Virus record (IMG/VR): IMGVR_UViG_3300017951_000042
Coordinates: 1 to 37,334 of that record
Direction: 5' to 3' (one strand)
Length of the DNA stretch: 37,334 nucleotides
From: a virus
Numbering within the stretch: the first letter of the stretch is position 1; every line of letters begins with the position of its first letter. The position numbers and the translations under genes are program-made. Positions 21,900 to 37,334 of this stretch are shown here, in pieces. The notes below the pieces were generated by a model. It saw only the letters and a program-made list of their open reading frames with translations. It did no database searches and had not been told where the DNA came from.

Positions 21900-22022
21900 T
21901 CACTTTTTCTTCTTCATCATCATTTTCTTCTGTGCTGGACTCATTTTCTTCCGCCCCATTGCTTTGGCTTTGTTGGAAGGTCTTCCAACCTTCGATCCGT
22001 AAGTTCCTTTTCCGTATGGCAT
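21900..22022 (-). CDS. 40-aa lysine-rich protein (MPYGKGTYGSK type)
   Basis: Starts at the ATG in AATATCATG and reads MPYGKGTYGSKVGRPSNKAK, ending in a run of Met and Lys (MSPAQKKMMMKKKK). An upstream in-frame ATG would overlap the neighbouring gene and adds unrelated sequence. Tiny proteins with this opening are, as far as I recall, frequent in marine phage genomes; function unknown. The high positive charge suggests binding of nucleic acid, either genome compaction in the head or nucleoid binding. It is the last of four basic genes before the terminator. Confidence 0.7.
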   Translation of the reverse strand: MPYGKGTYGSKVGRPSNKAKAMGRKKMSPAQKKMMMKKKK

Positions 22023-22098
22023 GATATTATTATTATTCCTTTTGATTAAGCGGCCATTGTGTTGGCCAATTAAAGTGTTTTTTGTGTGGCATGTTAAC

Positions 22099-22386
22099 CT
22101 ACCATTTGACCTTGTCAGCCCAATATGCTGCTGACATTTTCCCTTTTGCAATGTTCTTGGCATGTCTGGCTTTGAATGATTTTCTTTTTGCTTTCATTCG
22201 TGCCGACTCACCTGCTTTAGGCTTACCAGCAGTTTTAGCTCCTTTTTCACCAAACCTAATAGTTTTTATCTTATCACCTTCTTTGGCAACGACTATGTGT
22301 GATTTCTTGGGGTGGTTAGGAGTTCTTTTAGGTTTATTGAAACCTGACACGCCTGCCCTCGCTAGTCTTGGGTCTTTCTTGCTCAT
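22099..22386 (-). CDS. DUF6321-like small basic protein
   Basis: 95 aa. It contains GVSGFNKPKRTPNHPKKSHI (about 12-31), then VVAKEGDKIKTIRFG and, near the C-terminus, KSFKARHAKNIAKGKMSAAYWADKVKW. I recognise this as the conserved sequence of a small viral family (I believe DUF6321) found in cyanophages, other aquatic phages and some large viruses. No enzymatic motif; strongly basic. The function is unknown and a virion or DNA-associated role is plausible. It follows the 79-aa gene by six bases. Confidence 0.8.
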   Translation of the reverse strand: MSKKDPRLARAGVSGFNKPKRTPNHPKKSHIVVAKEGDKIKTIRFGEKGAKTAGKPKAGESARMKAKRKSFKARHAKNIAKGKMSAAYWADKVKW

Positions 22387-22392
22387 TTCTAA

Positions 22393-22632
22393 TTATGCCT
22401 TTTTTGTTCTGCGACCCATGCCTACTCTACGCTTTTCAGCCACGAGTGCCTTTTTCTTTTTGCCAACCTGTTTCCAGGTCTTGGGAGTTGATTTAGAAAC
22501 TCTTTTACTGGGACGGCATTTTTTAACGCCTTTAGTTTTTTTGGACCCGCAAGCGTTACCATTTTGATCCGTCCACTTCTCTTTGAACCACCGTTTAAGG
22601 TCTGCCCCGGCTTTGCCTTTACGAACTGCCAT
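22393..22632 (-). CDS. DUF5872-like small basic protein
   Basis: 79 aa from the ATG two bases after the previous stop; an earlier in-frame ATG would read through the neighbouring gene. The core DLKRWFKEKWTDQNG (about 11-25), then CGSKKTKG and KKCRPSKRVSKSTPKTW, matches the W-F-x-E-K-W-x-D then CG and CRPSKRVS-x-x-TP pattern of the DUF5872 family that I know from phages and giant viruses. Two Cys may bind metal. The tail is Arg/Lys-rich. Function unknown. Confidence 0.8.
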   Translation of the reverse strand: MAVRKGKAGADLKRWFKEKWTDQNGNACGSKKTKGVKKCRPSKRVSKSTPKTWKQVGKKKKALVAEKRRVGMGRRTKKA

Positions 22633-22633
22633 A

Positions 22634-22768
22634 TCACTTCTTCTTCCCCGCTTTCTTCTTCCGGCATTTCGCGATCGCACCACTAGCATACGCACTCGGG
22701 AATATCTCATAGCTACGCTTTACCTTATGGTAACATGCGTCCTTTTTAGGCTTTGCTTTTTTCTTCAT
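22634..22768 (-). CDS. 44-aa basic protein with CYHKVK and PSAYASGA motifs
   Basis: Start context CCACCTATG. The protein is MKKKAKPKKDACYHKVKRSY continuing EIFPSAYASGAIAKCRKKKA and ending GKKK. The pattern C-Y-x-K-V-K-x-x-Y-x-(W/F)-P-S-A-Y-A-S-G-A-x-x-K-C-R is a small family I have seen repeatedly in phages and large DNA viruses, often beside DUF5872-like proteins. Two Cys flank the conserved core. It opens the four-gene basic cassette, one base before the DUF5872-like gene. Function unknown. Confidence 0.8.
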   Translation of the reverse strand: MKKKAKPKKDACYHKVKRSYEIFPSAYASGAIAKCRKKKAGKKK

Positions 22769-22807
22769 AGGTGGATACGGTTTATGAGCCTAGCGAGCTG
22801 CGTTAAC

Positions 22808-24943
22808 CTATACTTTCTTTAATTCGTAACGTGTCAAGCCATTAGCTTTCCACTTATGGAGCTGGAACCCGAGGACAGGGTCAGGCTCAAACCCGGAGAG
22901 GTACCTGCCCAAAACAACACTGCTGAGGTTCCTGTCTAACGCGTCTGCCAGCTCGTTACTCTTCAAAGCTTCAACAAGCTGGGTACAGGTGCCAATCCAG
23001 GAAGTTTGTTGCTGTGTTTGGAGGATCGCCCAGAAAGCTGCTATCACCTCAGCAAGTACAGCTTTAGGGGAAATATCCTGTGAATGAGAGTCCAACTCGG
23101 GGTGGACGAATGTTTTCACCCCGAACCGGGTCTGCACCGTTACAGTAGGGTCGGGCTGGTAGTCCAAAAGGAACTTGGCAAAGTGGGGAAGCTCAGTCTC
23201 AAGAGTCCTCATAATCCACCCCTGATCCGAATTGGGGAACTGCATGTCGCTGTAGGTACGGAAAGCAAGGAGTTTATCCCGCACCGCTTCATGCTCGATG
23301 TTCGGAAGTACTGCACGGAGCGAGTCATCGTCCAGATTACAGGCAATCATCACCCGCCCCTGCCAAGGTACAGAGGCTTCTGAGCCAAACTTCTGTCGAT
23401 AGGCGGCTCTACCTGAAGCAACAACGTCTTTTACTTTGGCACTTATCGCAGCACGGGAGCGATAACTACCCTCCCCATCCTCGTCGTCCATCACCCACAG
23501 GGGGCTGGCGACCAACTCGGCAGAGAAACGGGTCTCTCCCCGAAGGAACTCTTTAGCTCTCTCCCCTGCACCAACGAGTCCTCCGACAACTCCGTTCATG
23601 AAGAGAGATTTACCTCCCCCATGATCTCCTGCCAGCACGACCGCCTGCCCCCATAAAGGTTCAAGGTTCAGGTGGGACTGGTAAAATCTTTTCAACCACG
23701 CAAGGATGTAGTCAATCTGCACATCCTCCCTGAACAAACCTTCGATCAGGCTGCAAATAAAAGGCCACTTGCCTACGTCTCCACCCTCCGCAGGTTTGAG
23801 GCAGGTTGCCCTCCCTGTGTTCAGGTATTTCCCGGACGGGAGCTCAATTAACTCATCCTTCTTATTCGGGACAGCTACCGCCCCGACGACAGAGCGTTCC
23901 TCAAAGACCCTGTAAAGAAAAGTATCCGCCGGAGAGTTCCCGTCCTTATCCTTCTTGTTCGTGACTCCGTGGGCATGGTGCAGGATACTCAAAGCCTTTA
24001 ATGCTGTAACCCCCAGCCATCCGTCCGTGTGGCGGTAGTAATATTTATCCCTGTCGGAAACGTAATAGAAGTCCTGGATCATATCCCCGAAAGTCTCCTG
24101 AAGATACCCGTCCGTAAAATCTTTCCCGAAGATGTCAGACCACGGTTGAAACCCCATACAGACACGGGATGAGTGGTCAAAGACCCCACCCTTGAACATC
24201 ACTACGGAGTTCGAAGTCCCCTGGTCGTAGGTGTCATCGTCCCAGAACCTGCAACTACGGATACCTTCTTCAACAGGTTTACCCCATCGGTCCAGCCAGC
24301 CCCTGCGAGCCATCTCTTTCTCGATCTCAGGGAACGGTACCTCTACCCCTGCTGGGAAGTCCCGTTCAGGGTTCATCGTCTCAGACATCACGGAGTAAAG
24401 TAAACTCTCGGGGACAAAGTCTGCACCGGGTACATCTGTCCAGTTCGTCCCTGCCTCATAATAAAGGGAAGGGTCAAGGGACTTTTCGTCAAACCCCGGC
24501 AGCATCCCTGTAAACTTCAGGTGCTTGTCCAGCTTCCTGACAAATCTTTCATAGTGGTCCCACCCTGTAAACAACACAGGCTTCGCAAACAACCACACGG
24601 CACGGGTGTAGCCTGAGAAAGTTGAGGAGAGGAGACCGGGTTTATACCTGTCGTTACACCGTTTCTGTGCGTTCTCTAACGCTTCTTCGATGGACATTTT
24701 GTACCCATCGTAATCCACAACCAGCCCCACGGAGACCACCGGAGGGTTCTCTTTACTGACTCGGATTGATCTGTTTTTGCCACCTACTGCTGAATAGAAG
24801 CAGTGCTGGAAGTCAGGACTGTTAATTTTCTGTGCCCACTTCCCTTTTGGAATGGACGGGTAACCGCTATGGGGAAAATCCCAAGGATATCCGAGGGTTG
24901 TCTCCGGCGTGACGTGATTTGGAATCGTTAAAAAACTGTTCAT
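22808..24943 (-). CDS. PrimPol (AEP)-SF3 helicase replication protein
   Basis: 711 aa from ATG 24943; an ATG eight codons earlier is possible. The N-terminal primase-polymerase-like domain has VVDYDG (Asp77, Asp79; the hDhD metal motif), SGYTRAVWLFAKP (about 110-122, where family proteins have the second motif) and a later DPSLYYEAGTNW region. The C-terminal SF3/D5-type helicase has Walker A GDHGGGKS (439-446) and Walker B WVMDDED (483-489). It should prime and unwind the phage origin. The start overlaps the end of the RuvC-like gene by 77 bp. Confidence 0.8.
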   Translation of the reverse strand: MNSFLTIPNHVTPETTLGYPWDFPHSGYPSIPKGKWAQKINSPDFQHCFYSAVGGKNRSIRVSKENPPVVSVGLVVDYDGYKMSIEEALENAQKRCNDRYKPGLLSSTFSGYTRAVWLFAKPVLFTGWDHYERFVRKLDKHLKFTGMLPGFDEKSLDPSLYYEAGTNWTDVPGADFVPESLLYSVMSETMNPERDFPAGVEVPFPEIEKEMARRGWLDRWGKPVEEGIRSCRFWDDDTYDQGTSNSVVMFKGGVFDHSSRVCMGFQPWSDIFGKDFTDGYLQETFGDMIQDFYYVSDRDKYYYRHTDGWLGVTALKALSILHHAHGVTNKKDKDGNSPADTFLYRVFEERSVVGAVAVPNKKDELIELPSGKYLNTGRATCLKPAEGGDVGKWPFICSLIEGLFREDVQIDYILAWLKRFYQSHLNLEPLWGQAVVLAGDHGGGKSLFMNGVVGGLVGAGERAKEFLRGETRFSAELVASPLWVMDDEDGEGSYRSRAAISAKVKDVVASGRAAYRQKFGSEASVPWQGRVMIACNLDDDSLRAVLPNIEHEAVRDKLLAFRTYSDMQFPNSDQGWIMRTLETELPHFAKFLLDYQPDPTVTVQTRFGVKTFVHPELDSHSQDISPKAVLAEVIAAFWAILQTQQQTSWIGTCTQLVEALKSNELADALDRNLSSVVLGRYLSGFEPDPVLGFQLHKWKANGLTRYELKKV

Positions 24944-25382
24944 ATATACTGTGTCCGTAGTCTGCAATTAAGAAAGCGTCTGCCATTCGCTTAGTATGCT
25001 TACTAAAACGAACAGAAGACGCCTCGTATAGTTTAGTTTTTCTGGCGGCATAGGTAAGCCCTGACGGTATGTTGTAGGGCTTCTGCCATTCGGCAGGCAT
25101 CAGCTGTACGGTAGGGATCTGAAATAACTTCAAAACCATACCCCAAGCATGAAAATTACCACCGAAAGAGAAGGCGGATTTCACTCCCATCTGGCCGGAA
25201 GCGGAAACCTTTTCAATAAAACAAACCGGATTGGTGGCACTTGCCTCCTCAAGAAGTGCCTCCCAATCCGGTTCCCATGGAAATACCCGAACTCTTCCGG
25301 GCGTCAACAATACCGCTCCTCCATCTTTTCCAGGATCTATCCCAAGTACGGGATGGAGTATTTCAAAGCGAGGAGTGGTCAT
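24867..25382 (-). CDS. RuvC-like Holliday-junction resolvase
   Basis: 171 aa with an RNase-H fold typical of RuvC: GIDPGKDGG (Asp16), FIEKVSA (Glu57), a Gln/Met-rich middle (QMGVKSAFSFGGNFHAWGM), substrate segment LMPAEWQK (about 94-101) and MADAFLIADYG (Asp135). Phage RuvC-like nucleases resolve branched replication/recombination DNA before packaging. The last 25 residues overlap the PrimPol gene. The start follows a 23-bp gap and has an anti-Shine-Dalgarno-like CCTCCT before it rather than a Shine-Dalgarno. Confidence 0.85.
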   Translation of the reverse strand: MTTPRFEILHPVLGIDPGKDGGAVLLTPGRVRVFPWEPDWEALLEEASATNPVCFIEKVSASGQMGVKSAFSFGGNFHAWGMVLKLFQIPTVQLMPAEWQKPYNIPSGLTYAARKTKLYEASSVRFSKHTKRMADAFLIADYGHSIYEQFFNDSKSRHAGDNPRISLGFSP

Positions 25383-28750: not shown

Positions 28751-31372
28751 TTAACCCTGACGGAGAACAGTCGTCTCCATACCACGGGTAAGATTATCCT
28801 GGTCTTCCAGAAGGACTTCAAAGTCCTTCTTGGCAGACTTGCTTAATGAATGTTTGCAAAATAGTTTTTCAAGTTTGGGGACGCTGACAGTGCAGCAGTC
28901 GAGGATGTCGTTCATCTCTACACCGTGGGGCATGACCGATACAGCCATCACCACGTCCGGGATAGAGCGGCTCCCTTTACGGGTGTAGGGGGTGTACCCA
29001 CGGGGAGCTTTCCCTGTCGACTTCACCCAGTCATGGACGGTCTTCTTCGCATTCTTGCACCACTCGTCCAAAAGACTGGTGGCGTCCATAATCTGCCCCA
29101 TCATGTCAGGATCTCCCATCTTGGTAAAATCAAGGTCTTCAAAGATGGATACCCCTCCATTGACCGCAGCACTGGTGTCGACCTTCTTAATATGGTTGGT
29201 GACAGGGCCATCCAACGCAGGGCAACCGCCCGGTTTATTACGGGCACAGTACTTACAGTTCTTCGCGTCAGGGTTGAATTTCTTCTGGTCGTCCGGTTTC
29301 TCCGCTTCAGTGATCACGTCAATGATCTCTTTCTGTAAGGTCGGAAGATCCCTGCGATGAAAGACATGCTCAGTCAGGTAATCCCTGCGTGGCTGGACAA
29401 AGACAACCTTGACGGTATCAGTGTGGGGGTAGGTTTCAAATACCCCGACAGTGTATCCCTTCCCCTGCCAATTCGTCTTGGCCGGATCTACTTTTGTATA
29501 TCCAAATTTCCAGTCAATGATTGTCGCCTCAGTACCTGCGATCAGCAAACGGTCAACGTGTCCGCTTTGTTGGAACGGGTGACCTTTGAGAATAGTAACC
29601 TCCGGCTCGATGAGGGTGGTGGGGTCCTGTCCGGGATTACTTTTTACGAGCTCGTTGAACTCGACCTGCTCAATCGCACGGCAGTCCTCCAGCATTCCGT
29701 TCTCTTCCTCATCGGTTTCATGGTTCGCGCCGTCCAATACTTCATGGAGCTTAGTCCCCTGAACCGTAATAGGGTGCGGTGGTCCTGAGTTGTCGGCCTG
29801 ATAGCCGGGACATATCGCCTTTGGTTTCAAAGACGAGGGTGAGTGTCTGGAGTGTCCACGGTCACTGTGCTGGGTCTGGGCAGCTACGGTGATCATATCC
29901 TGCAAAGGCATGTGGGACGCTGGTGTCGGTGTTGCGATGGCTTGTTTTAAGTTCATGCTGGTAGGTTCTTGAAAGGGTTGTTCGGTTTGAGGTCCAAGAA
30001 GCTCATCTGGTACGGGTGCAAGATTGCATCCTCTTTCTCCTTCAGTGAGGAGATCTGCATCCGTAAGCGTGTTAATCCTAGCAACTTTCGCCTCGACCTT
30101 CGACCGCACTTGGGACTCGACAGTCTTGGCCGCAAAGATGATCTTGGCGAGCGAGACGGATTTTTGATTTGCACGAAATGTCCTGCCGAGGGCTTGGATA
30201 AGTTCCCTGGCGGAGTAGGATGGGGATATGAGTGCAGTACGAGGGTACTGCCCATCGGTGTCGTGTAGATTGATGGACTGCCCGCCCGCTGACATCGTGA
30301 CCGCAAGGATGCGGATCTCGTTATTCTGGAACGCATCCCTGTCTTTGTTTGAAGATCCGTCAAAGATGCCGGGACTTTGTTTTTTAAGTTTGTTAACATA
30401 CTCTTGGAGGGATGCCTGAAAGTTGAAGAACGCTACCACGGACCTGCCTTCACGGAGGGCATCCTTTGTCATCTCAACAAAGACAGGTACTTTCAGGTAT
30501 TCAGATTCCTGACGGGAGCGTAAGAGAGCGGTGATCGGCAGCGGACGGTCTGCTTCCTTAATCTGTTTAAGGGTCTTCAGGTACGCATTGTCCAAAGCGG
30601 AAGATTTTTTCACGTCAACGGATACTGTCTGTACCTGCTGTCGGGGAAACTCGGGAGGGAAATCAACAGACGTAATCCGCTTTGCAACGGGTTCCATCAT
30701 CTTTTTCAGGAACGGGGTCGCATCCTCATGCTCCACCATAAACTCCTGTCCGTTTTTAGAGAACTTCTTTCCGAAGAACATTCCACCGAACGTGCCTTCG
30801 ATGACTCCGAACTGGTACGCCCAGAGTTTGAAGTTGTTCCAGTTGTGCAGACCGAGGGCGTACCCGATCGCTTTCATTTGCAAAGGGGAGTCCGCATAGG
30901 TAGCAGACAACCCAACTGCCTGAAGGTCAGGGTTATCCCCAACCCCTTTCAGGATATAGGGGGTACGGGTTGTGTGGTCAGGGGAAGCACACTGGTGGAC
31001 TTCATCAAATACCACGACTGTACCTTTAGGCAGGTTCCAGATAAAATCTTTCCGAAGCCATCTTCCATAAGGCAGGACAGGGCGTTTCTTTTTCAACGAG
31101 GGGCGGTAGGTAATCTCCCCGTAGGAATGCACCCCGATAATGTTGATTGGGCGTACCCCGCACGCCTCAAGGGTAACCCTCCACTCCGTTGTGACTGAAG
31201 CAGGGCAGACCACGAATACGTCGTGACCTGTCCGGGCAATCGCTGCGGCAACCTGCACAGTCTTCCCCCGACCTGCATGGGAGCAGTTCAGGTGGAACCT
31301 GCATCCGGGATCGTTCAGGAACCGGACATGGTGGTCAACAGCGGGTTGCTGCCATGTATAGGGTTTAATCAT
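28751..31372 (-). CDS. SF2 helicase fused to RecB/Cas4-like Fe-S nuclease
   Basis: 873 aa. The helicase (1-472) has Walker A SHAGRGKT (31-38), DEVH (123-126), SAT (156-158) and QALGRTFR (393-400). The second part (473-873) resembles DUF2800/RecB-type PD-(D/E)XK nucleases: GTKLHE (539-544), E591, GHVDR with Asp607, IIDWK (Asp620, Lys622), QPRRD (660-664), and Cys521, Cys706, Cys709 and Cys717 spaced as in 4Fe-4S nucleases. Such pairs process DNA ends or reversed forks. The joint has an in-frame Met473 preceded by AACCTACCAGC, so a separate nuclease product is possible. ATGA overlap at the start. Confidence 0.85.
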   Translation of the reverse strand: MIKPYTWQQPAVDHHVRFLNDPGCRFHLNCSHAGRGKTVQVAAAIARTGHDVFVVCPASVTTEWRVTLEACGVRPINIIGVHSYGEITYRPSLKKKRPVLPYGRWLRKDFIWNLPKGTVVVFDEVHQCASPDHTTRTPYILKGVGDNPDLQAVGLSATYADSPLQMKAIGYALGLHNWNNFKLWAYQFGVIEGTFGGMFFGKKFSKNGQEFMVEHEDATPFLKKMMEPVAKRITSVDFPPEFPRQQVQTVSVDVKKSSALDNAYLKTLKQIKEADRPLPITALLRSRQESEYLKVPVFVEMTKDALREGRSVVAFFNFQASLQEYVNKLKKQSPGIFDGSSNKDRDAFQNNEIRILAVTMSAGGQSINLHDTDGQYPRTALISPSYSARELIQALGRTFRANQKSVSLAKIIFAAKTVESQVRSKVEAKVARINTLTDADLLTEGERGCNLAPVPDELLGPQTEQPFQEPTSMNLKQAIATPTPASHMPLQDMITVAAQTQHSDRGHSRHSPSSLKPKAICPGYQADNSGPPHPITVQGTKLHEVLDGANHETDEEENGMLEDCRAIEQVEFNELVKSNPGQDPTTLIEPEVTILKGHPFQQSGHVDRLLIAGTEATIIDWKFGYTKVDPAKTNWQGKGYTVGVFETYPHTDTVKVVFVQPRRDYLTEHVFHRRDLPTLQKEIIDVITEAEKPDDQKKFNPDAKNCKYCARNKPGGCPALDGPVTNHIKKVDTSAAVNGGVSIFEDLDFTKMGDPDMMGQIMDATSLLDEWCKNAKKTVHDWVKSTGKAPRGYTPYTRKGSRSIPDVVMAVSVMPHGVEMNDILDCCTVSVPKLEKLFCKHSLSKSAKKDFEVLLEDQDNLTRGMETTVLRQG

Positions 31373-31578
31373 TTGTTGTGTTTAAGGTCGTCCACTGCCA
31401 GTTCAATTAAATCTCTTGCGAGTCTGGTATTCTTGATCTGGGCACGGTGGATACGGCATTCGATTTTGATAAAGCCAGGGAGTTCTACCACGACACCGGA
31501 GTCGGTGCAGCCTACCTGCTGGCCACCTTTCTTTTCCCTGCGTGGTGTGCTGATAACAAGCTGGTCCAGTTTCTTCAT
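31369..31578 (-). CDS. Small basic early protein
   Basis: 69 aa, basic, with VISTPRREKKGGQQVGC and a helical C-terminus (NTRLARDLIELAVDDLKHNK). Two Cys in the middle do not form a recognised finger. It shares ATGA with both neighbours, so translation is coupled to the helicase-nuclease. Function unknown. Confidence 0.6.
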   Translation of the reverse strand: MKKLDQLVISTPRREKKGGQQVGCTDSGVVVELPGFIKIECRIHRAQIKNTRLARDLIELAVDDLKHNK

Positions 31579-32939: not shown

Positions 32940-33066
32940 AGGTTGTGGCATCAAATTGGTATAATATACGAAACCTGTCAATACTTTTTTTAAATTTCCT
33001 GTTTTTTTGAAAATCGGCCTCCAGATCGGGAAGGCTTATATTAGCTAAATTCGTATATTGTGAGGG
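32940..33066 (-). promoter_or_regulatory. Leader and presumptive leftward promoter region
   Basis: Minus-strand sequence contains a perfect TTGACA (32976-32981) about 37 bases before the first leftward ATG and a TATATTAT tract soon after, but spacing does not fit a canonical sigma-70 promoter. A-rich runs flank it. The position strongly suggests that leftward transcription begins in or near here; the exact promoter is not resolved. Confidence 0.35.
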
Positions 33067-33125
33067 ACAATAGAGGGATTTGTGTAAATAGACGAACAAA
33101 CACATTAAACAAATCCCTCTATTGT
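33067..33125. repeat. 17-bp perfect inverted repeat in divergent region
   Basis: Arms ACAATAGAGGGATTTGT (33067-33083) and ACAAATCCCTCTATTGT (33109-33125) with a 25-bp spacer. A TATTGT just to the left (ending at 33061) can pair with the first arm instead, giving alternative structures, and TATTGTGAG occurs both before the left arm and at the end of the right arm. Candidate operator, origin element or RNA switch. Confidence 0.75.
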
Positions 33126-33130
33126 GAGTT

Positions 33131-33160
33131 GGGTAGGGGATGGTAGGGGATGGTAGGGGT
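33131..33160 (+). repeat. 10-bp G-rich tandem repeat (G-quadruplex-type)
   Basis: Three copies of TGGTAGGGGA-like units give four G-runs (GGG, GGGG, GGGG, GGGG) separated by 2-6 bases on the plus strand, meeting the usual G-quadruplex rule. A C-rich relative occurs in inverted orientation at about 33347-33360 and 33410-33425. Confidence 0.65.
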
Positions 33161-33165
33161 GTTTT

Positions 33166-33435
33166 TTGGCTATCCCACCCTTGAGCAATCCCTGTAAGCA
33201 AGCGGGCTGAGAGGCAATGAGTGGGAGATGTAGGAGATGTTTGTCACATACGATAGTGATCTTTCGAAAAAATAATATATAGAGAAAAAGAGATAATAAT
33301 TGTATAATATAAGAGGTACTATAGAGAGAGGGGTTTTAAAGGGATCCCCACCCCTACCATTTTGGCTTTTTTTTGGCTGCCAGCCCACTCTACCACAGGG
33401 ATTGAGGCACGGTAGGGGTCCCCTACTATCCCCCC
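33166..33435. other. Origin-like region: AT core between imperfect inverted repeats
   Basis: Left sequences (including CAATCCCTGT and GTAGGGG) recur inverted on the right (ACAGGGATTG at about 33395, CCCCTAC), flanking an AT-rich core at about 33255-33315 with long A/T runs. The core contains TATAAT and ACTATAGAGAGAG (33318-33330), which resembles T7-type promoter cores. No protein reading frame is credible. Together with the neighbouring repeats this resembles an origin/divergent control region. Confidence 0.5.
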
Positions 33436-33592
33436 TTTATATTATCCTGCCTCGTATATATGGTTGTTTTTCTATAATATAAAAATCCGTTTACGTGCGA
33501 GGGGTTTTCGTGAAGGATTCCGGATTAGCTTTTCGGGTTGGACCGAGTCTCTTTTTGGCAGTAAATATATTCAAGAAAAGCAAAGTTCGTTT

Positions 33593-33618
33593 CCCACCCT
33601 GCCCCCTGCCCTACCCCC
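33593..33618 (-). other. C-rich tract, minus-strand G-quadruplex motif
   Basis: Five C-runs of 3-5 separated by 1-2 bases (CCC, CCC, CCCCC, CCC, CCCCC) give a compact G-quadruplex motif on the minus strand, directly before two inverted repeats. Confidence 0.55.
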
Positions 33619-33624
33619 TAGCTT

Positions 33625-33688
33625 GTTAGCAAAATCACATTTGCTAACGTCTTCGGCTAGGTTTTTTTTTCGGTCGGTCGACCTAGCC
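33625..33688. repeat. Two adjacent perfect inverted repeats with T-run
   Basis: GTTAGCAAA/TTTGCTAAC (9 bp, 6-nt loop, 33625-33648) is followed by GGCTAGGT/ACCTAGCC (8 bp, 33655-33688), whose loop includes eight T and CGGTCGGTCG. The second arm leads into GGTC-type repeats to about 33715. They may be operators, a terminator for rightward transcripts from the origin region, or part of the rightward leader. Confidence 0.6.
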
Positions 33689-33872
33689 CACTTTCGGGTC
33701 GGGTCGGTCGGTCGGATCTCAGATAGAATTTTTCTCACACCATACCAGTAACCATTTAACGAAAGGCTTTTTATAGTAGGTTTTACTTTTCCCCCATATT
33801 TTTACCGATAGGCTAACACCTTGCAATGGTGTGACGTGTTACCTATCACTCAAACCTAAAAATCCAAGGAAA

Positions 33873-34295
33873 ATGGAAACTGAAACCACAACCGAAATCG
33901 AAGAAACTGAAACCAATAACACCGAAAGTACCAACGAAGTGACCTTGTCAGACTTCTCTGACATAGATCTAGCCAAGGAATTGGCTCACCGAAGCGGACT
34001 TAACCTGAATCTGACGGGCTTCACGGCCGTGATCACGGGTCGCCAAGGTGACGAAGTGGGGTTCCAACTCTATCACGTAGGTCAAGCTGGACAAGGCTTA
34101 GGTCAGTGGGTTCGAGCAATCGAAAACACAACCAAACCTGAGAAGAAAGACAGGCTCCGCTCCAAGGCTTGCAACGCAATCGGCAATTTGCTCGATGACG
34201 GCCAAGCTAAGGAAATGGCGAAAGCTATGGATCACCGAACCAAGGTAACTTACGTCTTCTCCGACAAGTCACACTCCAAGGTACACGAAAAATAG
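33873..34295 (+). CDS. First rightward gene, unknown function
   Basis: 140 aa from the ATG in CCAAGGAAAATG (a weak Shine-Dalgarno-like AAGGA); an alternative start 14 codons upstream is less likely. Residues 1-30 are an acidic Glu/Thr/Asn tail. The remainder forms a compact domain (DLAKELAHRSGLNLNLTGFTAVITGRQGD...GFQLYHVG) followed by a basic helical region (KPEKKDRLRSKACNAIGNLLDD). No family was recognised. The coding sequence includes a 7-bp hairpin (TGTCAGA/TCTGACA). As the first rightward gene it may be early and expressed from the divergent region. Confidence 0.65.
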   Translation: METETTTEIEETETNNTESTNEVTLSDFSDIDLAKELAHRSGLNLNLTGFTAVITGRQGDEVGFQLYHVGQAGQGLGQWVRAIENTTKPEKKDRLRSKACNAIGNLLDDGQAKEMAKAMDHRTKVTYVFSDKSHSKVHEK

Positions 34296-34316
34296 ACAGT
34301 AAGTAAGTTGTCAAAC

Positions 34317-34345
34317 GTCTAGCGGAGCATTCCGCTCCGCTAGAC
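34317..34345 (+). other. 12-bp perfect hairpin after first rightward gene
   Basis: GTCTAGCGGAGC pairs with GCTCCGCTAGAC around a 5-nt loop, 22 bases after the stop. No T-run follows, so it is a weak terminator or the 5' hairpin of the structured RNA that follows. A (TA)n tract lies at 34377-34393, possibly promoter-related. Confidence 0.7.
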
Positions 34346-34660
34346 CGACCTTTCGGAAAAGTGTTAACCTACTAAATATATATATATATATATCGAAAAA
34401 ATCCAATATCAATTTCATTCCCATATTGAGGGGATACCGACTTGGCAATCTGAGTATGTTTCTAGCCACGTTGTCAGAAACTGAAAAGTCGGTCACCAAG
34501 CCACGCCAGTCGAGCTAGGCTCTCGCCCCGTTGCCAGACCTAGCGGTAGACAAGAGTCGAGGACAAGTCAACTCCGTTGACCTCCCATGAGACCCCTTAT
34601 GTAGTGTGAGATCACGTTACGATCTCCCGACGAACCCAAACGGGCAGTCACGTTACGATA

Positions 34661-34993
34661 ATGGGAGTAGGACGCCAGTGCCTACGTGGGGTCTACCCAG
34701 ACCGCTGTAACGATTGCAATGTCGCAATCTGTAACCAGCAAACCATACGGACAGAGTGTCGACAAGACCTGAATGGTACACCTGAAAAGTGTGTAAGACA
34801 AGGTTGCTCCCAGAAACGAGTCGGTATGTATGCAGTCTCCGTATTGCCGTATGGTGAGCTATGCCTATGGTGGAAACTGCATCGAAAAAATTTCCTGTCA
34901 AATGAAGTGAAGACCGAAAGGTCGAACCAGCGAAGTTGCAATGCTGGGGGAAATTTGCTTAATGGGAGTACGTCTAGCATATGCTACCAATGA
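34661..34993 (+). CDS. Possible small Cys-rich protein
   Basis: A 110-codon frame with many Cys early on (RCNDCNVAICN, then TECRQD, KCVRQGCSQK), a spacing that could bind zinc, followed by PYGELCLWWKLHRK. It lies wholly inside the structured region and crosses several hairpins, has no Shine-Dalgarno, and I recognise no homologue. Either a genuine zinc-binding protein with structured mRNA or chance. Confidence 0.3.
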   Translation: MGVGRQCLRGVYPDRCNDCNVAICNQQTIRTECRQDLNGTPEKCVRQGCSQKRVGMYAVSVLPYGELCLWWKLHRKNFLSNEVKTERSNQRSCNAGGNLLNGSTSSICYQ

Positions 34994-35197
34994 CACAACT
35001 GTGTCCAGACAACTCCGTAGCGGGAGTCGAGCCTAGTCCGACCCGTTAAGCGAAATTGGTGGAACTCCTATACCCGTAGGAGTCCGTCGAAGGCACTTTG
35101 TCAACTAGGTCGAAGGCTAAAATTCTATATGCAAGGCTAGTACCCTTTGCAAAAAAGCATATAGGCCCGCCCAATTTCAGCTCCGTTACGTGGTAGT

Positions 35198-35329
35198 ATG
35201 GAGCTGGGTTGGATCCGTAACCTTCCAAGTTGCCATAACCTGAGAACGGGTTGCACCACTAATGCCCAAGTTATCCGCAAAGCGGTACAGAAACGGCAAG
35301 CTGGAAAAGTAATCATACCAGCAGAATGA
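35198..35329 (+). CDS. Possible 43-aa microprotein
   Basis: Reads MELGWIRNLPSCHNLRTGCT and continues with VIRKAVQKRQAGKVIIPAE. Its TGA overlaps an ATG of a 21-aa basic frame (35326-35391) as ATGA, as in the leftward operons. It lies across structured RNA, so chance is a real possibility. Confidence 0.2.
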   Translation: MELGWIRNLPSCHNLRTGCTTNAQVIRKAVQKRQAGKVIIPAE

Positions 35330-35421
35330 AACTCTCCTTTGCCCAAAGGAGGACACGTAGGGTGCAGGCGAATAGACCTCGTAGCAGGTAAACTGTAGAG
35401 GTTTATGTACACACAAATATA

Positions 35422-35604
35422 ATGGTTCTGTTTGTGTGCTGCCACACCAAGTACGATGTTAACTTACACGTCGTATATGCCACACGGTGTGGAAATGGAA
35501 AGGTCGTCCATTCCCTAGGTAAAGGGTCCAACCCCGCAGAAGAAGTTAACACACTGGCACTGCGTGTAAACAAAAGCCAGCCACGTCAGCCGCACGGCAG
35601 GTAG
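35422..35604 (+). CDS. Possible 60-aa small protein
   Basis: Reads MVLFVCCHTKYDVNLHVVYA and ends in a Pro/Arg-rich tail. Composition is protein-like, with beta-strand-like hydrophobic stretches, but there is no Shine-Dalgarno and the start region overlaps a perfect 8-bp hairpin (35410-35438). No homologue recognised. Confidence 0.3.
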   Translation: MVLFVCCHTKYDVNLHVVYATRCGNGKVVHSLGKGSNPAEEVNTLALRVNKSQPRQPHGR

Positions 35605-35740
35605 GAAAGCTATTGTACTTCCTACACCTCATCCCTGTCCTCGTAAGCTGGTGACGTTAAACAGGCACAAGCATTAGGTGCCACTTGATCTGGCAAGGTA
35701 TGGTACACCCACGCCAGCGAGTTGTGAAACGTATCCTTAT

Positions 35741-35775
35741 AGACCCGTCAGGTCGAATTATTCCCTGACGGGTCT
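35741..35775 (+). terminator. Terminator-like hairpin
   Basis: A perfect 12-bp stem (AGACCCGTCAGG with its complement, 11-nt loop) followed by TTGAATTT, just 11 bases before the next ATG. It could end an upstream structured RNA or form a leader hairpin for the 77-aa gene. Confidence 0.6.
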
Positions 35776-35786
35776 TTGAATTTCCC

Positions 35787-36020
35787 ATGAGTAACAATAA
35801 TAATCCAATCGGGCAGCCTCACGCTGCCCCAGTATTCGAGGACCTCCCCCACATTGTGGTGGAGGTCCTCCGCACCTTTGAAGGTGCGCAATGCAAGGGT
35901 TTCCCCACGTTCAAAGCGTGGCTGGAAACCCAGATCAAATGGGACGTCGAGTCCCAATCCCTCCAACCCCTCACCCCGCAAGGGGCTGAGATGCTCAGGA
36001 CCTTCAATCCATGGTCCTGA
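35787..36020 (+). CDS. Small protein encoded by hairpin-rich mRNA
   Basis: 77 aa: Asn-rich start (MSNNNNPIG), then an ordered part (VFEDLPHIVVEVLRTFEGAQ, FPTFKAWLETQIKWDV) and TFNPWS at the end. Codon use and composition look like real coding sequence. However the same 234 bp contains at least five perfect 7-13-bp hairpins, including a 10-bp stem enclosing a second 4-bp stem and an 8+5-bp stem, so coding and RNA folding are both under constraint, or the frame is incidental. No family was recognised. It overlaps the next frame by 10 bp. Confidence 0.5.
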   Translation: MSNNNNPIGQPHAAPVFEDLPHIVVEVLRTFEGAQCKGFPTFKAWLETQIKWDVESQSLQPLTPQGAEMLRTFNPWS

Positions 36021-36214
36021 TCCCCCTAACAAGTGTCCACGAGTACACGACCCGTGGACACCACACGCAGAACGATGCACGGGGCAACCTGTGTGTTGTT
36101 CTTCGGGCCGACCGATACCTCGTACTGAGGACGACGGTCCGAATCGCAGGCACCCCGTACCCGAAAGGGACGGAGGTCCGCCTCGACCCCAATGGTGGGG
36201 TCATAACACGATGA
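36011..36214 (+). CDS. Small beta-rich protein, structured mRNA
   Basis: 67 aa from an ATG overlapping the previous gene's end in another frame. The C-terminal half is beta-like (NLCVVLRADRYLVLRTTVRI, PYPKGTEVRLDPNGGVITR). It carries a 9-bp hairpin, a 15-pair GCAA-capped hairpin and a 9-bp nested stem. No homologue was recognised. Confidence 0.45.
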   Translation: MVLIPLTSVHEYTTRGHHTQNDARGNLCVVLRADRYLVLRTTVRIAGTPYPKGTEVRLDPNGGVITR

Positions 36215-36523
36215 CGTGGGTCGGGATGGCCCCCTTTCGTGCAGGCTAACAACCTGCTAGTCGGACACACCCGATGAAGAGAAGCCCCTGTAGTGGGGGT
36301 AAACTGGGCTTGGTAAGCCGAGGTGTAGGTTAACCCCGCACTGTTGAATTACTAGGGCGAAATCCCTGACCGCAAGGTCGAAGCACTGCACAGTGAGACG
36401 AGTAAGTCCGTCGCAGACCTGTGCAGTGTGAACCTTTTAACGAGCGCCCTCAACCCTTACGCCACAGCAGGTTGTTAGGGACGCATTCTATATGCAGTGG
36501 CACAACTACAGAAAGAAAATACC
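36215..36523 (+). other. Non-coding, structured leader of last gene
   Basis: No credible reading frame. Stems include GCAGG/CCTGC (36241-36257), TCGG/CCGA (36261-36274), AAGCCC/GGGCTT (36282-36311), AGGG/CCCT (36354-36367), a GCAA-capped GACC/GGTC (36368-36379) and a perfect 10-bp CACTGCACAG stem (36384-36428). After 36430 the sequence is less structured and leads into ACCATG. Confidence 0.5.
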
Positions 36524-37334
36524 ATGTTAGCTAATAACATCCTCCCATCCGCAAAGTATTCCACACCTGAGCGTCTGCTCATCGCTCAGGTAAACGGTAA
36601 AAGAGACGCCGACGAGCAGGTCGACAAGTCCCTGAAAACACTGCGGGACAACGGCACCTTGACGATCGACACCCTGTCCATCTTGAAGGACGTTCTTGGC
36701 GACGACGCCTATGAATGGGTCCAGTCCGCATACAGAGCATTCCCGACCTTCCCGGACTGTGTAGCAGGTGCGGAGGAGCGCGAGGAGTATTGTTACTCTT
36801 ACGCCCGCCAGCTTGACGTCCGTATTAAAGACGTCGACGTTTTGATAACAGAGCTTCAGGACAACGAGGATAAGGAAGACCTCTCCGAGCAAACTGTCCG
36901 CCCGTTCGTTACCCGCATTGCGGAGGAACCCGCATCGGCGAACGCAATCATCCGGTTCCTCAACCGCCAGTTCGCTGGTGTGTACACTGATGCAAGCTAC
37001 TCCTTGTACGAGGGTGACCTATCCTTCTGGTTCTTCAACTGTGACCAGCTAAGCCTTGAGTTCGGAGGGTGGGGACAGAGGTTCACGATCTTCGACCTCT
37101 TCGGGTCAGGCGTCTACGCAATCTGTATCGCCACAGGCGACGCCGAAGGCGAGTACCTTGTCCACTTCGGGCATTGGTCTGCGGCCATGAGCTGCATGTA
37201 CCAACATATTGTCGACGAGGGCAGCTTGCAGTACGTCCGCAAGCACGGAACCACCTTCAGTAAGGTGTGGCTCCCACACTTTGACACCAACCCCAGCTGG
37301 GATCATACGGAGGGCCGGCACAAAAAGAAAAAAG
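36524..37334 (+). CDS. Unrecognised rightward protein, truncated by window
   Basis: The frame is open from ATG 36524 (context AAATACCATG, no Shine-Dalgarno) for 270 codons to the right edge. The N-terminal 130 residues are helical and acidic (KSLKTLRDNGTLTIDTLSIL, DVDVLITELQDNEDKED). The following part has aromatic Trp/Phe/Tyr-rich segments (LYEGDLSFWFFNCDQL, VHFGHWSAAMSCMYQH) like a globular alpha/beta domain. The visible end is basic (EGRHKKKK). No family was recognised; the C-terminus lies outside the window. Confidence 0.75.
   Translation, partial: MLANNILPSAKYSTPERLLIAQVNGKRDADEQVDKSLKTLRDNGTLTIDTLSILKDVLGDDAYEWVQSAYRAFPTFPDCVAGAEEREEYCYSYARQLDVRIKDVDVLITELQDNEDKEDLSEQTVRPFVTRIAEEPASANAIIRFLNRQFAGVYTDASYSLYEGDLSFWFFNCDQLSLEFGGWGQRFTIFDLFGSGVYAICIATGDAEGEYLVHFGHWSAAMSCMYQHIVDEGSLQYVRKHGTTFSKVWLPHFDTNPSWDHTEGRHKKKK

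Follow-up and report, generated by a model that had tools for sequence, protein, structure and literature searches.

The described systems closest to the locus analysed here are GOLLD, ROOL and OLE. GOLLD is a large, elaborately folded noncoding RNA of phages and prophages, ROOL is a large RNA of phages and prophages with a complex multibranch structure, and the function of both is unknown. Both RNAs often lie close to tRNA islands and form RNA-only cages, and OLE is a large ornate RNA of bacteria (PMC12286853). The DNA that we analysed is an entire linear virus record of 37,334 bases, called the window in the following, which is possibly a genome fragment. Near its right end we see about an even chance that the plus strand encodes a real large structured RNA, with a predicted noncoding core of ~1.36 kb that is followed by a strong hairpin. 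This best explanation is based on a predicted folding that is strand-specific, sharp and stronger than composition or codon constraints would give, as well as on the absence of the RNA from Rfam.

The phage is far from described phages (best match of its DNA polymerase A 27%). Positions 1-32981 are occupied by minus-strand genes, among them those of the terminase large subunit, DNA polymerase A, a helicase/exonuclease and a DUF5906 protein, which support a phage location of the RNA. The DUF5906 protein is a putative primase, and a large minus-strand protein is portal-like as judged from its position and size. For two large proteins of the window the searches returned no match. Starts of the minus-strand genes mostly lack a Shine-Dalgarno sequence and several follow an ACCT-ATG context, a hint at an unusual host. 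Two further features of the minus strand are found at 21900-22800, where the primase and terminase genes are separated by A-rich DNA with small ORFs rich in lysine, and at 31369-31578, which encodes a 69-aa protein. This protein resembles the RF-1 domain, the catalytic part of peptide chain release factors, including GGQ, and by this resemblance may be a phage ribosome-rescue or release factor.

From 33831 onward the gene orientation is that of the plus strand. A gene for a 140-aa protein (33873-34295; coding score 10.7, 0 of 300 shuffles as good) lies upstream of the RNA, and a large coding ORF (36524-37334; coding score 44, 0 of 300 shuffles) runs past the window edge. Family searches gave no match for either of them. 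In between, the plus strand holds a 77-aa ORF (35787-36020) and a doubtful 67-aa ORF (36011-36214). The segment between the minus-strand genes and the plus-strand part (32982-33830) is noncoding and partly AT-rich, with G-rich and C-rich inverted repeats as well as direct repeats. It carries neither a coding signal nor an excess of structure and is possibly an origin or regulatory region. In relatives of the phage G/C-rich repeats are likewise found close to a structured region.

A chain of hairpins at 34317-36428 had been proposed in the initial annotation as a candidate giant structured RNA. Counting perfect Watson-Crick stems of at least 7 bp with loops of 3-15 nt, we found every quoted stem again, at 34317 (12 bp), 35064, 35334, 35410, 35601, 35741 (12 bp), 35811, 35838 (10 bp), 35995 and 36033, together with further ones at 35178, 35871 and 36185. 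The claimed number of more than ten stems held, with 14 in this interval, whereas 200 dinucleotide shuffles averaged 1.17 and had at most 5. Stems of at least 9 bp numbered 4, compared to 0.09 in dinucleotide shuffles, and the remaining window contained 0-4 stems per 2 kb. The 500 nt from 35741 hold 7 stems; across the window and 38 related phage records, 39 in all, the next densest stretch had 5. The larger closing stems proposed before are also present (34582/34661, 34437/34486 and 34830/34876). Those at 34437 and 34830 are high-probability helices, and the stem 34582/34661 is in competition with a predicted long-range helix.

The interval as such needed revision: it is structured, but it starts at an upstream hairpin, has a coding ORF inside and really ends at about 36478, since structured DNA extends beyond 36428 up to a 13-bp closing stem. 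The upstream hairpin (34317-34345, plus strand, 12 bp, perfect) directly follows the gene at 33873-34295 and precedes the RNA proper. It is terminator-like, yet lacks a T run and was not called by the terminator scan, which found the U-run missing after the hairpins of the region. Next comes an AT-rich stretch with a TA repeat (34373-34419, plus strand), from which transcription of block A possibly starts. A promoter scan found no sigma-70-type promoter in it. We divide the remaining part into block A, the noncoding core (34420-35780), block B, a hairpin chain (35776-36245), and block C, a compact element (36246-36478), all on the plus strand.

Block A is a candidate large RNA of ~1.36 kb according to folding z-scores, pair probabilities and the helix map. 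At 34296-35786 the coding signal of the phage is absent in every frame and the codon-based gene finder leaves a gap of 1491 nt in an otherwise dense genome. Reading block A with alternative codes (TAG=Q, TGA=W) gave no long frames that look plausible. Folded as 34394-35740, the plus strand reached a z-score of -6.2, below all 60 shuffles, compared to -3.6 for the minus strand. One coding control of equal length gave -4.35, from 8 shuffles only. The ensemble of the plus strand was sharp: 253 pairs had a probability p>0.9 compared to a mean of 105 and a maximum of 160 in 20 shuffles, and its diversity was 182 compared to a mean of 347 and a minimum of 248 in such shuffles. The minus strand behaved like the shuffles (132 pairs with p>0.9, diversity 348). 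Pairs with p>0.9 that span at least 250 nt numbered 62 (20 shuffles: mean 24, maximum 54); because a coding control reached 43, this count is not decisive by itself. Locally, in windows of 150 nt, stability was only moderate (mean z about -1.7), as would fit a fold that depends on long-range contacts.

A large structured RNA is expected to surpass shuffles on one strand both in folding energy and in the sharpness of its ensemble, and block A does so. The plus-strand preference put forward before is real, but its basis is folding energy and ensemble sharpness rather than GNRA loops, whose excess is weak (5 on the plus strand compared to 1.5 in shuffles, where the maximum was also 5). The strand asymmetry also disfavours DNA palindromes as the sole explanation.

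The multibranch architecture that had been suggested is borne out by the long-range pairing in the helix map of block A, where helices with p>0.9 connect positions separated by as much as 1 kb. Predicted long-range helices of the plus strand are 34559-34564/35637-35642, 34684-34689/35581-35586, 34750-34759/35093-35102 (10 bp, p>0.8), 35126-35133/35561-35568 and 35207-35216/35524-35533 (10 bp, GGTTGGATCC / GGGTCCAACC, p>0.8). A terminal helix (34432-34437/35731-35736, pair probabilities 0.74-0.86) closes the block just before a perfect 12-bp hairpin (35741-35775, plus strand), with which block A ends. The T run after this hairpin is weak. As a separate observation, three hairpins of block A share an ACCC tetraloop (34586-34601, 34690-34703 and 35065-35082), out of 5 such plus-strand hairpins with at least 5 bp in the whole window. 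A fourth block A hairpin (35334-35351) has a CCC-containing loop. Post hoc, the ACCC loops are possibly a repeated binding site.

Block B, with its nearly back-to-back hairpins, is the most extreme part of the structured region (z -9.4 on the plus and -5.4 on the minus strand), such that in blocks A and B alike plus-strand folding was well beyond the shuffled controls. One of its stems (36070-36101) has 14 bp and a GCAA cap. Its 77-aa ORF (plus strand) is coding-like with a codon score of 7.4, a codon bias that was matched by 1 of 300 dinucleotide shuffles and, among 1000 shuffles that preserve the structure, by none. It is within and just past this ORF that the hairpins are densest (35811-36061). 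As its codon usage looks genuine, this part would be a structured mRNA and not a plain noncoding RNA. The overlapping 67-aa ORF (plus strand) has a non-coding-like codon score of -4.9 and a sub-threshold match to DUF7210 (E 0.025).

In 200 codon shuffles that keep protein and codon usage, the fold of the 77-aa ORF had a z-score of -6.7 and that of the 67-aa ORF -4.8. With 30 shuffles each, other genes of this phage averaged -0.8 (sd 1.3, lowest -4.8), compared to -10.5 for the 77-aa and -3.5 for the 67-aa ORF. Since the fold is extreme with respect to protein-preserving codon shuffles, selection in block B appears to act on RNA structure in addition to coding. Second to the 77-aa ORF only, the mRNA of a RuvC-like gene (24867-25382, minus strand) was also tighter than its codon shuffles (z -4.8 and -4.1).

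These controls bear directly on the concern that composition or chance could mimic structure in a region that holds no selected RNA. Such an artefact would agree with the modest local z within block A and with the finding that no homologues turned up (see below). Against it, 0 of the 200 shuffles reached the stem counts, the z-scores of block A, of block B and of the 77-aa ORF with its codons preserved are all strongly negative, and the ensemble sharpness exceeds all 20 shuffles on the plus strand only. The artefact reading is largely refuted by the shuffle and codon controls, and we consider it very improbable.

Block C is a noncoding element with z-scores of -3.9 on the plus and -3.0 on the minus strand. 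A perfect 13-bp stem (CTAACAACCTGCT / AGCAGGTTGTTAG, 36246-36258 with 36466-36478) encloses its 207 nt, and an 11-bp stem (36383-36393/36419-36429) lies inside. A retron-like reading of the 13-bp closing stem was set aside, as a reverse transcriptase was not seen in the window. Two sequence elements recur within the region: blocks A (34912-34929) and C (36368-36385) have a GNRA-loop hairpin GACC-GAAA/GCAA-GGTC-GAA in common, and ATTCTATATGCA is present at 35122 and 36485.

Taken together, we propose that the core would be transcribed rightward from the AT-rich stretch past the upstream gene and would be ended or processed at the hairpin at 35741-35775. It would adopt a multibranch structure whose ends are closed together and may, like the giant ornate phage RNAs, provide a folded RNA scaffold that acts in trans during infection. 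The plus-strand structure would run on through the short coding ORF, as an mRNA formed by a hairpin chain, up to the compact element closed by 13 bp.

A different role follows if the same strand is instead transcribed as one structured leader and messenger from about 34400 to 36524 and beyond, regulating or protecting the downstream genes in cis. The structure is indeed unbroken across the 77-aa ORF up to the next gene, the hairpin at 35741-35775 stands only 11 nt before the ATG of this ORF without a clear U-run, and in relatives a small gene directly follows the RNA as well. Block A, however, closes on itself before this hairpin, which suits an independent RNA. To our knowledge, 1.36 kb moreover far exceeds known leaders, which counts against this reading. 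We therefore prefer a scaffold-like role in trans, which we hold with about even confidence, over a cis-acting leader or messenger, which we regard as possible but rather unlikely. Whether blocks A, B and C form one continuous giant phage RNA of ~2.05 kb (34420-36478) that is bifunctional and belongs to an undescribed class appears doubtful to us. If true, such an RNA would combine a coding ORF in a selected hairpin chain with a self-closed core and would be longer than known ornate phage RNAs.

No known RNA class matched the region, in line with the initial annotation. An Rfam scan of the whole window at gathering thresholds gave no match, and a scan of 33700-36600 with E up to 5 gave nothing of note; an sbcD match with 16 bits at a cut-off of 40 was judged to be chance. 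The covariance models of GOLLD (which we take to be RF01998), ROOL (presumably RF03087) and OLE were each unmatched at the gathering threshold in the window and with E up to 5 in 33700-36600. A scan for tRNA and tmRNA genes in the window found none, so that the tRNA neighbourhood, frequent but not obligatory for GOLLD, is absent. With the Rfam scan empty and no tRNA island, membership in GOLLD or ROOL is not supported.

The size and the long-range pairing would also be compatible with a large ribozyme, i.e. with a self-splicing intron or another catalytic mobile RNA. The Rfam models of group I and II introns and of ribozymes were, however, not matched even at relaxed thresholds, no intron-encoded protein was found, and the flanking ORFs resemble complete genes instead of split exons. 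A catalytic RNA is, in our view, the most improbable of the explanations.

A blastn search with the window RNA in phages and plasmids gave no match. Among about 200 viral loci of relatives, gathered via DNA polymerase A (~40% identity), portal (at most 48%) and terminase, none carried the window RNA or its plus-strand neighbour proteins. Since no homologue was found for a covariation comparison, support for the fold comes from shuffle statistics. Several distant relatives possess a structured noncoding region of their own beside the replication genes. Three of them (G014, G016 and G025) share one of ~600 nt in a gap of ~1.75 kb after the primase gene (L099 8980-9515, L104 3375-4020 and L081 18455-18990, respectively; coordinates given without strand), with a folding z of -4.2 in G016. 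Their alignment contained 6 pairs changed on both sides, 4 of them in the 3' hairpins, compared to 2.0 in shuffles, with three sequences and a structure taken from the same alignment. Covariation in this region is modest. In a fourth relative (G023, L107 8350-10134) a noncoding region of 1.8 kb with G/C-rich repeats adjoins the primase gene and holds 10 stems compared to 1.5 in shuffles. The relatives' regions had no Rfam match at gathering thresholds, and at relaxed thresholds the structured parts of G016 and G023 gave chance-level miRNA matches only.

Like the window RNA, the regions of these four relatives are noncoding and structured, adjoin replication genes, precede a small gene and have a hairpin at the 3' end. 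In contrast, the shared region is shorter (about 600 nt), convincing sequence homology is absent, and identity with the window RNA is not demonstrable. A motif common to the window and G016/G014/G025 (GGTT-GATCC-TAAC-TTCCAA) had an E of 0.004 in a tiny database but of 3.8 in the full set and is not claimed as homology; a 25-nt match of 88% between G016 and the window was likewise rejected (E 3.8 in the full set). Scanning all viral contigs for the motif returned the three known records; further matches fell within long open frames or on the strand opposite to them and were considered chance. On inspection the partner helix of the motif was not evident in the relatives. Using the protein that follows the relatives' RNA as bait returned the same three records only. 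In another related phage record (L112 4987-6330), inspection shows an apparent integrase gene together with the 3'-end sequence of a tRNA, a possible attachment site, which suggests temperate relatives.

A further possibility is that the structure serves replication as part of an origin module near the repeats at 32982-33830, in the form of a primer RNA or of DNA hairpins acting in the single-stranded state. A repeat-rich noncoding region is close by, and in relatives the primase gene, G/C-rich repeats and a small gene surround the structured region. The strand asymmetry, however, speaks for RNA and against DNA hairpins, a gene separates the repeats from block A in the window, and the region is too long for a primer. 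We regard this link as improbable.

As no known RNA family matched, the plus-strand RNA of ~2 kb is probably, judged from its predicted fold, a new giant phage RNA. Giant structured phage RNAs such as GOLLD and ROOL are few in number and their functions are unknown. A larger candidate without sequence relation to them would suggest a repeated origin of large folded phage RNAs, an argument of which the relatives' own, differing structured region beside the replication genes is a part. It is unusual in itself that a coding ORF keeps a hairpin chain to a degree not explained by codon constraints. The window RNA is like GOLLD and ROOL in kind, being large, ornate and phage-borne, but is not a member of either by model. 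Compared to GOLLD, many members of which are over 800 nt, block A is longer with ~1.36 kb and no tRNA is present in the window. Compared to ROOL, block A has about twice the 659 nt of the studied RNA and lies at no tRNA island. OLE is likewise large and ornate; the window RNA differs from it by its location in a phage genome.
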